Positions 38,507 through 43,881 of a DNA stretch of 46,460 bases are shown one piece after another. Below the pieces are notes generated by a model. That model searched no databases. It had not been told where the DNA came from and worked only from the letters and a program-made list of their open reading frames with translations. A program made the translations under genes and the position numbers. Each line of letters opens with the position of its first letter. Position 1 is the first letter of the stretch. The stretch comes from a virus, in IMG/VR virus record IMGVR_UViG_3300034110_000369, positions 1-46,460 of that record; one strand, written 5' to 3'.

Positions 38507-39943
38507 TTACGGTTTAATTGTGAATTTGATTTTACCACAGTCCCATAGTCTGCTATAACCTGCTTCTTTCATCATTTCTTTTTCTGTTTTATTGTCAGAA
38601 TAAACGTGTGGTAATTTACTCATAATGTGTTTTCTTCTGAATAAAAATTTATGGTATCTGTTACCTTGTTTGACATAACTGTAGTCAGGTGCAAGCTCTG
38701 AATCAACGGTAAAGTCTGCTTTTAAATACGAATCACCTGAATATCTACATTTGTCAAGGAACGTGAATACTTCTTTACCTGTGACTCTGAGGAAGTGTTT
38801 AACTGACTTACCTAGTGAACCGATTACGCTTGTTGAAGTGCAATGCCTGACGAGTTCGTAATTATCGCCCCGTCTAGTAAAACATGATACAGACACGAGT
38901 TCGTCACCACTGTATAAACAAACAGATTCACTGTAAACACAAGATCCTTGTATATGATTACGGTTAAGAAATTCTGCAACTATTCCTTTTGTTGGGTTCG
39001 TCACTATTTTACATTTTCTGGCGAAAACTGACTTAACATCAGATAAACCGAGTAACTGTTTAATGAATCTGATTTGTAAATCTTTGTTTTCGTTCCATTC
39101 ATTTTCCCAGATATGGACCAGTCTAAAACCAGCGTCGTTACACATTTTGGTTTTGTTTGAATGATAGTGTTTGTCCTTACCGAACTCCTCAGAGTGCCAT
39201 TTCAGGCCATTGTATTCGATGGCGATTTTCTTTTCAGGGATAACAATGTCAATTTCTAAAGGTTTAATTAACGATCTGTCAGACCGTATTACTGTTAAAC
39301 CTTCTGATTCGATTATGCTTGCGATCTCGTTTTCAGGTGCTGAAAGTCTGACAGCACACGACGGACAACCAGCCCCTGCACTGTAATGATTTTCGGCAGA
39401 TTGCAAGAAAGGACCATGTATCTTACAGATCACAGTCACTTTACTTCTGTAATGAGTGTAACTGGAAAGGTCGTATTCGTACTTGTCACCATGAACCTTT
39501 CTTGCCATTGTCATAAATTCAGAATTATTAAGTTTCTGTTTCTGCCCCGCTGACTCTTTGCCACATTTCGGGCAACCTTGACCTCGATAATGGTTTATTA
39601 ATGATTGTGAGAACAAACCATGTGTTTTACAGATGATGTCTACGTTGTCTGCGACTTTTTCATACTTTATTTTAGAGTAGTCATATCTGTCACCGTGAGT
39701 TTCCACGCATTTTGCTATTACTTCGTCAGGTTTTAGTTTTCTGGATTCAGTTTTTTTTAATTTTCCGCAAGCAGGACAACCTTGACCCGTAAGATGTGCA
39801 TTCGGTATTTGTTCAAAATCACCATGCAAAGGACAGGTTATCGTTACTTTTGATTTACTTTTGATGTAATTAGTTTTTGAGTAATCATACTTGTTGGAGT
39901 GTACGATATTAGCGGATAATATGAATGATTGTGTCTTATTCAT
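38507..39943 (-). CDS. Vsr-like (EDxHD-type) homing endonuclease with triple zinc-finger repeats, 478 aa
   Basis: AAGGA site before ATG. Three repeats of about 45 residues at 15-60, 83-128 and 150-196, each with H-x-KYDYS, V-I-C-x-HG-x-F and GxGCPxCG. These probably bind DNA. Residues 204-300 are the nuclease: ENEIASII, LEIDIVIPEKKIAIEYNG, KWHSE, as in I-Bth0305I/Vsr relatives. Residues 310-478 form a further domain (EFLNRNHIQG ... GYSRLWDCGKIKF). Inserted between capsid terminator and connector gene. AT-rich compared with neighbours. Selfish element. Confidence 0.82.
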   Translation of the reverse strand: MNKTQSFILSANIVHSNKYDYSKTNYIKSKSKVTITCPLHGDFEQIPNAHLTGQGCPACGKLKKTESRKLKPDEVIAKCVETHGDRYDYSKIKYEKVADNVDIICKTHGLFSQSLINHYRGQGCPKCGKESAGQKQKLNNSEFMTMARKVHGDKYEYDLSSYTHYRSKVTVICKIHGPFLQSAENHYSAGAGCPSCAVRLSAPENEIASIIESEGLTVIRSDRSLIKPLEIDIVIPEKKIAIEYNGLKWHSEEFGKDKHYHSNKTKMCNDAGFRLVHIWENEWNENKDLQIRFIKQLLGLSDVKSVFARKCKIVTNPTKGIVAEFLNRNHIQGSCVYSESVCLYSGDELVSVSCFTRRGDNYELVRHCTSTSVIGSLGKSVKHFLRVTGKEVFTFLDKCRYSGDSYLKADFTVDSELAPDYSYVKQGNRYHKFLFRRKHIMSKLPHVYSDNKTEKEMMKEAGYSRLWDCGKIKFTIKP

Positions 39944-41510: not shown

Positions 41511-41954
41511 GGTTATTACCTTATGTGAAATTTGAGTGATGGTTTTTGGTTGCGCTTATCCAAGCGGTACTGTGTATCCACACAATGAGGTTTGAGCTGG
41601 TCAGATACTCGCCTGACACCTGCGGGCTTTCAGCTCATTGGCTTTGGTGTTTTTATTGCTACGGTAGCACGACGGCATGAATAGCTGGGTACGAAAACAC
41701 CAAACCAATAAACTAAATTCTGAGCTGTGGGCGACTTAACGATCTAGGTCTGTGGTGCCTCCGTCACGACCGTGACACGCCTTCACTGGCGTCTAATCAG
41801 CTCATTGGCTTGATTGATAACCCTTTGCAGTCTGACAGGCTGATGCCTTGGGTTGCGATGTGCCATCAATCAAGCCAATAAGCACTGGCATTGCAGGTGT
41901 CAGCAAGGAGAACCCCTTCAACCTGTTTTGACCTGCAATGTCAGTAAACAAAGA
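41511..41954 (-). ncRNA. Candidate structured RNA between protease and capsid genes
   Basis: No gene in 444 bp. Two paralogous modules are seen, each a stem TGAGCTG/CAGCTCA next to a stem starting ATTGG and ending CCAAT: module B at 41593-41709 (stem of 16 pairs with one bulge, 41637-41653 with 41694-41709) and module A at 41721-41879 (perfect 15-pair stem, 41804-41818 with 41865-41879). A third long stem pairs 41884-41898 with 41931-41945 (one G-T). Small hairpins at 41554-41565 and 41571-41584 are near the capsid start. The distal parts of the two large stems differ but stay paired. It is part of the leftward virion transcript. Function unknown: capsid mRNA stability, translation control or a separate RNA. 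Confidence 0.6.
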
Positions 41955-42623
41955 TTACTTAAACAATTCTGATTTTGCAAGTAATTCAGCTAATTCTTGC
42001 AATTCTTTTTCTTCATCGTCAACGCCTGGTTGATATGCACCTGTAATTTTCTCGATCTGGCGCTTACTCAACCAGCCAACTGAATCAAGAATTTCTCGCA
42101 GTTCGGCTTTGGTTGGTAATTTGCCTTCTTCGAGATGGGATTTAATTTCTTGCAATCGTGATTCTTCGTTGCAGGCAAAGTTGACCCACGACACTTCGAC
42201 TACATGGACTTTAATCAGGTCATTGCATTTTAATGCAGTGTTCCATTTTTCTTCAATCACTTGGTAGCCAATGCTGAAACTGTCTAACGCTTTATCTTTC
42301 GCCAGTGTTTCAATATCCATGCCCATTGTGGTTTTGGAAAGCTTGCCACGCATGAACAGACCTTTTTCATCTTCACGCATTTCAAACCAAGGGCCGACAG
42401 GTAAACCGTAAGGATTGTGCATCCAGAACATTTTAGGCATGGTGCCATTGGCTTTGTGTCGAGCAATTGAATCTGTGAAACAACCGTCTACTGTCCGGTC
42501 CTGGGCATGGTCAATGACACCTTTTACGTTGGCATAGCAACTAAATTCACCAGTAGCTGAGTCATACTTAAATTCGGTAACGGGTACAACTATATGCCGA
42601 ACTGATTTATTTTTTACTGTCAT
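41955..42623 (-). CDS. Prohead maturation protease, 222 aa
   Basis: ATG 42623 chosen for its GAGGGT site; a frame from 42764 runs within the portal gene. Residues 20-120 carry the HK97/U35 protease pattern: FSCYANVKGVIDHAQDRTVD, MFWMHNPYGLPVG (His69) and KALDSFSIGYQ (Ser at 116-118). The C-terminus is charged and helical. Cleaves the capsid delta domain during maturation. Overlaps the portal gene by 17 nt. Confidence 0.9.
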   Translation of the reverse strand: MTVKNKSVRHIVVPVTEFKYDSATGEFSCYANVKGVIDHAQDRTVDGCFTDSIARHKANGTMPKMFWMHNPYGLPVGPWFEMREDEKGLFMRGKLSKTTMGMDIETLAKDKALDSFSIGYQVIEEKWNTALKCNDLIKVHVVEVSWVNFACNEESRLQEIKSHLEEGKLPTKAELREILDSVGWLSKRQIEKITGAYQPGVDDEEKELQELAELLAKSELFK

Positions 42624-43881
42624 CGGTATTACCCTCGTTATTTTGGTTATTGGCCTGACCGTATAGTTGAGCCTGAATTTCTTTAATGTCGGTCCACAGA
42701 CCATAAGTGACGTTATTGTTGTCGATGGCGAAAACGTCACCGCCTTCAATGGTTTCACGGCCAAGGTCGATACGGCCTTCGTTAATCGACGCTAAACCAC
42801 CTTTGACCTCACGTTCAACCGCTTCCACCAGTCGCCACGGTGAACCGGCGTAAAACGACTTACGGTTAAACTCGATACGCATACCGTCCGGCAATAGTGC
42901 ATTAAAAGCGTATTCAAGCTTAACTAAGATCGGATTTAACGAATCACGCATGTACGCCTCGTCCAGTTCGGCCACGGTACTTTTAGTACCAGGATCACTG
43001 GCGATACCGGTGCGGTGCGGTGGCACTCGGGTCATCCGGCAAATACGGTTTAGTGTAAACTCTTTATTCCCGAGTAATTCAGCATCTTTAGGCGTTAGTC
43101 TTAAACTGATTGGCGTCAAACCTTGTTCAAAAACAGGAATGAAGTCAGCACCTTTGGCCCCGCGCATTTTCTTCATTTCTTCGCGCAGACGTTCCTGAGC
43201 GCCTGGATTATTAAACACTTGCTCGGTTTTAAGTGCCATCTGTGACGTGATGCCATTGGTCTGTAATGACTCATAGGCATCATCCTGTGCGTTGGCAATA
43301 TTCAGCAATTGCGCACAGGCTTCAATCGGTCTAACCGGCCTGTAACCGTCTGTGGTGAACATGCTGATAATAAACAAATCTTCAGGATAAGCGGCAATAA
43401 CCGGTTTACCGTCATTCGTCGAATACGTGTAATACACGACGCCGTTAACGTCCATCATCGGACATACGTTACGCTGGTTAGCGAATGGTATGACCTCCAT
43501 GACTTCACCACGGTCATTACGCGCCAGATAAGCGTAAAAGACGCCATTGGTTTCGTAACATGCAATAGCCATTTCTAGAAACTGTTGCATGGTGAGGTAG
43601 TCACACGGACGCTGTGTGAATATCCGGTGATTCCGGCCTTGCAAAACCAGCTCCCGTGCATTACGGCTGGTTTTATAAAGCTTGATTGGCAATTGACCGA
43701 TGGTTTCAGCTTTATCACGAACGCACGAATAAAACGCCTCAATTTTCATTGCTTTGCTTTCAGTGATAAACAATGACGAGAATTTACCTAAGACGTCAAT
43801 ACCAAAGCTTTCGCTAGATTTAGTATCAACGCTTTCGCCGCCAGCACTGAACCAGCTTTTCAATCTGGTCATCATTTTCAT
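42607..43881 (-). CDS. Portal protein, HK97 type, 424 aa
   Basis: ATGA overlap with the terminase. Contains the usual phage portal order: AMKIEAFYSCVRDKAETIGQ, KLYKTSRNARELVLQGRNHR, EDLFIISMFTTDGYRPVRPI, RMTRVPPHRTGIASDPGTKS, AYMRDSLNPILVKLEYAFNA. Forms the dodecameric ring for DNA entry and exit. Length normal. Confidence 0.92.
   Translation of the reverse strand: MKMMTRLKSWFSAGGESVDTKSSESFGIDVLGKFSSLFITESKAMKIEAFYSCVRDKAETIGQLPIKLYKTSRNARELVLQGRNHRIFTQRPCDYLTMQQFLEMAIACYETNGVFYAYLARNDRGEVMEVIPFANQRNVCPMMDVNGVVYYTYSTNDGKPVIAAYPEDLFIISMFTTDGYRPVRPIEACAQLLNIANAQDDAYESLQTNGITSQMALKTEQVFNNPGAQERLREEMKKMRGAKGADFIPVFEQGLTPISLRLTPKDAELLGNKEFTLNRICRMTRVPPHRTGIASDPGTKSTVAELDEAYMRDSLNPILVKLEYAFNALLPDGMRIEFNRKSFYAGSPWRLVEAVEREVKGGLASINEGRIDLGRETIEGGDVFAIDNNNVTYGLWTDIKEIQAQLYGQANNQNNEGNTDDSKK

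Follow-up and report, generated by a model that had tools for sequence, protein, structure and literature searches.

A Tandem Pair of Putative RNA Modules between the Protease and Capsid Genes of a Phage

Introduction

A structured, gene-free interval between two phage genes raises the questions of what it is and what it does for the phage. The interval considered here lies in a virus record of 46,460 bases (the whole stretch analyzed, hereafter the window), within a minus-strand run of genes for the small terminase, large terminase, portal, protease, and capsid. It is a gap of 444 bp (41511–41954) that is present once in the record. The original prediction described it as gene-free and as holding two copies of a structured module. 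We identify the gap element as a tandem pair of putative phage RNA modules because of its sequence and covariation.

Results

The gap and its modules

Genes matching PF04586 (prohead protease) and PF05065 (major capsid) lie on either side of the gap. In transcription order, it contains hairpin A (41880–41946), module 1 (41721–41879), module 2 (41593–41709), and a capsid leader (41553–41586), and the order of the modules follows the sense of the capsid mRNA. The features are as follows.

41955–42764, minus strand: prohead protease gene (PF04586, 4.5e-19), upstream of the gap
41880–41946, minus strand: hairpin A, common to contig L005, with a longer stem at the same place in L006
41721–41879, minus strand: module 1, the first transcribed, slot stem and closed domain
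41804–41879, minus strand: slot 1, 15-bp stem with clamp ATTGG/CCAAT, variable inside; distal duplex −16.6 kcal/mol
41721–41804, minus strand: domain 1, 7-bp closing helix TGAGCTG/CAGCTCA enclosing three predicted hairpins
41593–41709, minus strand: module 2, with a 24-nt identity, TTTAGTTTATTGGTTTGGTGTTTT, to L068
41637–41709, minus strand: slot 2, ∼16-bp stem with one bulge; identical copy in L005
41593–41637, minus strand: domain 2, closing helix TGAGCTG/CAGCTCA and abutting hairpin GTCAG..CTGAC at the P3 position
41569–41586, minus strand: capsid leader hairpin 1, GGAU loop
41553–41566, minus strand: capsid leader hairpin 2, GGAU loop
40095–41510, minus strand: major capsid gene (PF05065, 5.1e-28), downstream of the gap

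Sequence comparison supports a plan of the form X-slot-X′-domain-X for both modules. X′, the middle arm, is CCAATGAGCTG here; its predicted upstream pairing closes the slot stem and its downstream pairing closes a multi-hairpin domain. All of the stems originally named, the 7-bp TGAGCTG/CAGCTCA helix and the stems bounded by ATTGG and CCAAT, were found in both modules, and the third 15-pair stem was located in the hairpin A region (41884–41898/41931–41945, 93% complementary). In slot 1, ATTGGCTTGATTGAT pairs with ATCAATCAAGCCAAT over 15 pairs without interruption. The closing helix is present in domain 1, but no hairpin directly abuts it. Of the two window domains, only domain 2 has a P3-like hairpin, the sequence of which is not conserved, and a clear P2 is absent from it.

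These stems are real and far above chance. The folding z-score of the segment is −4.7 on the minus strand and −5.9 on the plus strand, and on neither strand did any of 100 shuffles reach that stability. Among 1000 dinucleotide shuffles, none contained a stem of 12 or more perfect pairs directly adjoining one of 6 or more; under this strict rule, module 1 qualifies and module 2, with its bulge, does not. The original prediction was worked out on the plus strand and needs reorienting, as both neighboring genes are encoded on the minus strand. The modules are most likely read as RNA from the minus strand, in the protease-to-capsid sense. A DNA cruciform, which had been offered as one possible function, is less likely: on the sense strand of the condensed family set (see below), G-U pairs exceed A-C mismatches by 9 to 2. 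The counts are low, however, and for the window the predicted fold of the plus strand is slightly the more stable.

ARAGORN called no tRNA genes in the window. Its minus strand yielded no terminator-like sites, and the single promoter-like site there equals the chance expectation. An Rfam search returned nothing at the gathering threshold in the window and nothing at E values up to 10 in the segment, in agreement with the earlier view that GOLLD, ROOL, HEARO, and group I introns do not fit. Separately, an HNH endonuclease, homing-endonuclease-like gene lies between the capsid and connector genes (38507–39943, minus strand; phrog_559, E 2.3e-107).

Relatives of the slot

A pattern built on the clamp (TTATTG...CCAATGAGCTGA) located 22 viral loci, several of them near-duplicates. 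At eight of the 22 (L020, L041, L068, L074, L079, L082, L083, and L008, the last being the L005 contig), an uninterrupted helix of 7 bp or more, which was not demanded by the pattern, stands beside the clamp, with several different distal sequences. A slightly stricter pattern gave 14 bacterial-genome loci, used as controls, and none had such a helix. When only the 5′ slot arm was specified, 16 sites were found in 14 contigs, nine of which were new. The 3′ arm ends in CCAAT at all 16, and the slot duplex is better than all 20 shuffles at 15, L136 being the exception (here and in the T-arm test below, shuffles preserve base composition only). The collection search fixed neither side of the closing helix; its partner was then sought by complementarity, and we estimate that a perfect 8-bp Watson-Crick partner is expected ∼0.003 times per site. 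A partner was present in the scanned range at 13 of the 16 sites, ten with at most one G-U pair and three G-U-rich and possibly due to chance, and absent from that range in L131, the second L134 site, and L135. L130, L132, and L136 pair AAGCTG with CAGCTT, compensated with respect to GAGCTG/CAGCTC. Excluding the window, the slot is present in 20 IMG/VR contigs, and in most of them a closed domain accompanies it. Both the distal slot pairs and the closing helix vary in compensation across these relatives. The proposal that base pairing is under selection, first drawn from the two paralogous copies, thereby gains the support of independent relatives.

The window has the slot, with its ATTGG/CCAAT clamp and free complementary distal pairs, and in both of its modules downstream pairing of the middle arm closes a domain (GAGCTG/CAGCTC). 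Slot 2 has 24 identical bases in common with L068. L068, L074, and L083 have the same clamp and GAGCTG/CAGCTC helix as the window, and their domains fit the family descriptor introduced below. The putative membership of the window in this family rests on slot, clamp, and closing helix; its own domain interiors are divergent. BLAST with module 2 alone against 50,697 phage records gave nothing significant (five records, best E 6, consistent with chance), an additional collection search returned only the known L020, L074, and L079, and the L068 module had no match in plasmids. Another pattern gave 45 viral loci, from which L020, L031, and L041 were accepted and the other 42 discarded as looking like chance; L064 and L085 were rejected as coding or chance.

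Nearest relatives and the capsid leader

With the capsid protein as the query, two viral contigs were found, L005 and L006. The capsid of L005 is 99% identical, and its gap matches that of the window near letter-for-letter on both sides, yet it holds one module against two in the window. The slot of that module is identical to window slot 2, and the interior between GAGCTGAA and CAGCTCA differs (identity 0.38). Relative to L005, the window thus has one more module, and its domain interior has been replaced; the predicted two-module layout is correct for the window, but the number of modules is not fixed. L006 (57% capsid identity) has one long hairpin and the leader but no module. In Aeromonas phage KLEA5 and in five Vibrio phages, the gap measures 81–86 bp and contains the leader but no module. 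Because near relatives differ in their modules or are without them, the modules appear to have been added recently and to be in flux.

The capsid-side end of the segment proved to hold a separate conserved leader, which the original prediction had not recognized. At 14 loci (window counted), two consecutive predicted hairpins with GGAU, GGAA, or GGGA loops lie just 5′ of the capsid gene. Two-sided compensatory change is seen at five of nine stem pairs in six condensed sequences representing the 14 loci; the pair count is too low for L127, within which alignment gaps were placed. Five of the 14 loci (L009, L010, and L016–L018) were found using hairpin 2 in the pattern, so its constancy there is no evidence. 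The leader pattern gave 12 stretches, of which L012 and L014 were left out as repeats of the L010 gap and L007, L011, and L013 were unrelated. BLAST of the whole gap against phage records matched 10 records, in the leader only. The hairpin pair is a second conserved element, separate from the modules. GGA-GGA spacing is 18–21 nt by our count, an arrangement that may resemble paired CsrA sites. The tandem GGA-loop hairpins (41553–41586, minus strand), kept in module-free relatives, are a candidate site for control of capsid translation.

The wider family

The L079 module was used as a BLAST query and matched Klebsiella phage VLCpiS13b (E 4e-10) and, weakly, P1 and Salmonella phage IME207 (E 0.02–0.06). 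All of these matches fall under no annotated feature and lie within or beside tRNA clusters. The P1 segment in turn matched some part of 201 phage records. Feature-free stretches of ∼1.9 kb in K751, IME11, and KP6 (L115, L117, and L123) match the P1 module segment, and descriptor domains were picked in L117 and L123.

The descriptor specifies a 9-bp closing helix (at least 8/9 pairs), an AA/TGAA link, an insert, and a hairpin abutting the closing helix. Applied to 33 sources, it gave 27 accepted hits in 24 of them, and many others were discarded by eye as chance. It picks neither window module, nor L005: module 2 has seven closing pairs rather than eight, and module 1 is without the TGAA link. 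The descriptor alone is unspecific because it misses the window modules and produces 18 hits, taken as chance, at other places in the window. The addition of five copies by hand brought the family set to 32, corresponding to 29 distinct condensed sequences. In these 29, 97.0% of the cells of the closing helix and P3 are paired, compared with 76.7% in shuffles and 26%–53% in slid controls, a figure that is inflated because the descriptor demanded pairing. Two-sided change occurs at 10 of the 14 pairs of the closing helix and P3. The closing helices include GTTGTGGTG, GATTGGATG, GATGCGATG, GTTGCGGTG, TGTTTGGTG, and AATGAGCTG, each with its complement, and conserved P2/P3 loops are AGGCTGAT and AGATCAGCA.

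Among 5,426 E. coli genomes, 840 match one P1 domain, 813 of them across 80% or more of the domain, at 707 places on chromosomes and 237 on plasmids; among the 15 matches listed, none has an annotated feature underneath. Elsewhere, the domain sits directly 5′ of the N ribosome-binding site in SPN9CC, just 5′ of a hypothetical gene in Erwinia phage 59, and in the Q-S (late) leader of HK620. Through intermediates, the window-type domain appears to be connected to the P1 tRNA cluster, to Klebsiella, Salmonella, and Hafnia phages, to the HK620 late leader, and to lambdoid N leaders; a connection to STnc100 is suggested more loosely.

Exchange of parts and links to tRNA

Comparison of the 32 modules gave four pairs alike in the slot (at least 0.80) and unlike in the interior (below 0.65), ten pairs with the reverse relationship, and one pair alike in both, where the “slot” of BUCT_49532, JYSS3, and Meifeng is merely the 90 nt upstream, that of PhiR63_1 was set by hand, and the K751 pair was left out. 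For example, L074 and L079 have similar domains (0.93) and unlike slots (0.52), and L041 and L068 have similar slots (0.96) and unlike domains (0.43). Interiors are held in common by P1, IME207, and PhiR63_1 and by HK620, ZCKP8, and JYSS3, among others. Slot and interior therefore appear to recombine independently, with interiors swapped like cassettes and pairing arms kept. Copy number also differs, between the near-identical window and L005 and among P1 records. Such exchange and spread across many phages is invisible from the window alone. As a separate observation, the CUS-3 domain lies between two annotated boundary sequences.

A canonical tRNA T-arm occurs in 5 of 25 distinct slots (composition shuffles, mean 0.04, maximum 2) and in one of 24 interiors (L083). 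The L082 slot contains a tRNA-Ser called by ARAGORN. Both window slots are without a T-arm. At all 14 loci where a module was observed together with a neighboring tRNA, the two have the same strand (L041, L086–L090, L094, L099, L116–L118, L130, L134, and L136). In many relatives, the domain has a tRNA-like topology, with a closing helix, a short AA link, a D-arm-like hairpin, a variable insert, and a T-arm-like hairpin stacked on the helix; it looks like a tRNA that lacks the anticodon arm.

Two pairings are possible for the middle arm CCAATGAGCTG: with CAGCTCA on the downstream side or, using G-U pairs, with bases upstream past the clamp. All six extra bases are pairable upstream at 21 of 25 sites, window module 2 among them, and four in window module 1 (mean at random positions, 0.6); for 16 of the 25 sites, the search pattern included AGTTTATTGG, which partly fixed the upstream pairing. 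This dual pairing may be a switch or a trace of repeat structure.

Three further observations concern the same neighborhoods. Escherichia phage SUSP2 (L096, ∼1501–1539) has a slot-like stem between tRNA-Ile and tRNA-Arg and no descriptor domain. Group I introns share contigs with modules and tRNAs (L041, 239–471; L086, 3549–3769 and 5702–5950). Five enterobacterial phage loci, HK620 included (L088, L091, L092, L094, and L096; e.g., L094 ∼1250–1390), hold a tmRNA-like stretch, in which we read tags such as ANEEMYLAVA, ANDDVVLMAA, and ANDNVFLAVA; the E. coli tmRNA tag is ANDENYALAA. Rfam support for it is weak (alpha_tmRNA, 24.7 bits in L091), and ARAGORN made no call in L088 or L091.

Discussion

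What would such modules do? We lean toward a cis-acting processing and insulating spacer in the late protease-to-capsid mRNA, a reading to which we give not quite an even chance. The modules would be transcribed inside that mRNA and fold while emerging. Their long stems would be cut or bounded by host RNases, for which RNase III or tRNA-processing enzymes are candidates, and the capsid message, with its own two-hairpin leader, would thereby be separated from the upstream protease message. With the interior nearly free to vary, recombination at the short conserved arms could swap interiors between phages. Capsid and protease are required in very different amounts. A cis role is favored because the modules lie in untranslated stretches, in the sense of neighboring tRNAs (14/14), and before the N ribosome-binding site in SPN9CC, and because long stems are natural points for cutting or protection. 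The role is weakened by the relatives with the same gene order and module-free gaps of 81–86 bp, in which modules would seem dispensable for capsid expression. Swapping of interiors would suit a trans-acting or decoy role nearly as well as a cis role, and it is also compatible with recombination cassettes.

A trans-acting RNA, possible if rather unlikely, would be a stable STnc100/PasD-like scaffold freed from the late mRNA, with the variable interior serving in targeting or as a decoy under diversifying selection. Constant arms with a freely replaced interior would suit such a role, and the architecture is the same as that of STnc100. PasD and STnc100 are reported to be prophage-borne and to share an ancestor, and the targets of PasD1 and PasD2 to overlap yet differ (PMC13192938). 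However, STnc100 has a 3′ terminator, whereas the minus strand of the window is without a terminator-like site and its one promoter-like site is at chance level.

That the modules are recombination joints or selfish cassettes, whose short conserved arms promote exchange in noncoding gaps while the RNA itself would do little or nothing for the phage, we consider unlikely. It would account for the mosaic combinations of slot and interior in unrelated phages, the variable copy number between near-identical phages and between P1 records, the tRNA T-arms in 5 of 25 slots, and the boundary sequences on both sides of the CUS-3 domain, but the compensatory changes and conserved P2/P3 loops (AGGCTGAT and AGATCAGCA) imply selection on a folded RNA, and the G-U polarity favors one strand. 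An antitermination element of the HK022 put type, helping RNA polymerase to cross untranslated gaps, would suit the adjacent stem-loops and the untranslated sites (tRNA clusters, HK620 Q-S leader, and SPN9CC N leader), but it is very improbable: put RNA is ∼70 nt and depends on specific residues (PMC9378689), whereas the modules vary in size and have unconserved interiors.

A more novel reading goes further. The capsid spacer of the window would then be one branch of an unrecognized, partly tRNA-derived phage RNA cassette system, along with STnc100, the unannotated P1 RNAs, and the lambdoid N leaders. Constant clamp arms would hold two exchangeable inserts (slot and domain interior) that recombination reshuffles between phages, the inserts being swapped effectors (targeting or decoy) on a stable tRNA-like scaffold with a switchable middle arm. 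As a whole, this picture is speculative and unlikely. If the family holds, a common phage RNA class has been left largely unannotated in model phages (P1 and HK620), in environmental phages, and in hundreds of E. coli genomes, and tRNA clusters and structural operons would be tied to the prophage sRNA STnc100. Nature also supplies experiments in the form of near-identical phages with different module numbers and interiors, through which function is directly testable.

Several known RNAs invite comparison. GOLLD and ROOL are likewise phage-borne structured RNAs, often near tRNA islands, and GOLLD linkers are reported to contain tRNAs in some cases (PMC12286853); both are far larger and more elaborate than the modules and have no Rfam match in the window. 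T4 rnaC and rnaD lie in a phage tRNA cluster and are annotated merely as small stable RNAs. Visual inspection of their predicted structures did not reveal the module domain fold. In T4 (L124, 1109–1372, minus strand), the rnaC T-arm lies under a larger predicted fold, a possible module analog.

The lambdoid N leader carries the SPN9CC-type domain immediately before N, with no slot stem seen and a different closing helix. BLAST of the SPN9CC-type stretch matched 121 phage records, and among the 30 matches listed many are at the N gene. RNase III acts at the N leader in lambda; our search found no open-license paper on this. P22B is reported to be an sncRNA 16 nt before P22 gene 24 (PMC13397905), a position that corresponds to that of the SPN9CC domain. 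P22B was rejected as a module member, as its sequence as printed there folds like the domain in none of four orientations. HK022 put, compared with the modules by description only, consists of two stem-loops in a V shape and binds the β′ zinc domain of RNA polymerase. A limited search of open-license literature, in the portions accessible, found no description of the slot-domain architecture or its spread.

STnc100 (RF02076) is the closest in plan. Its consensus and the family domain both have a closing helix, an AAU link, a hairpin, an insert, and a hairpin stacked on the closing helix, and both RNAs are phage-borne; in Stx2 phages, a copy is reported to follow the toxin operon at a distance of 75 nt (PMC12370729). 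Unlike the modules, the STnc100 model is without a slot stem. The window has no match to the model and, on its minus strand, is without the 3′ terminator of STnc100. A closed multi-hairpin domain of the STnc100 kind, with the last hairpin stacked, is predicted for domain 2; in domain 1 the closing helix is present with no hairpin abutting it. Because the Rfam model threshold was not reached, we do not file the window under STnc100. The original claim that no named phage RNA has this plan agrees with the lack of an Rfam match in the window but overstated the case. The closed domain is built like the central domain of STnc100, and Klebsiella phage Magnus (52.9 bits, cut-off 47) and two P1 records (33.9 and 33.4 bits, sub-threshold) link the two.
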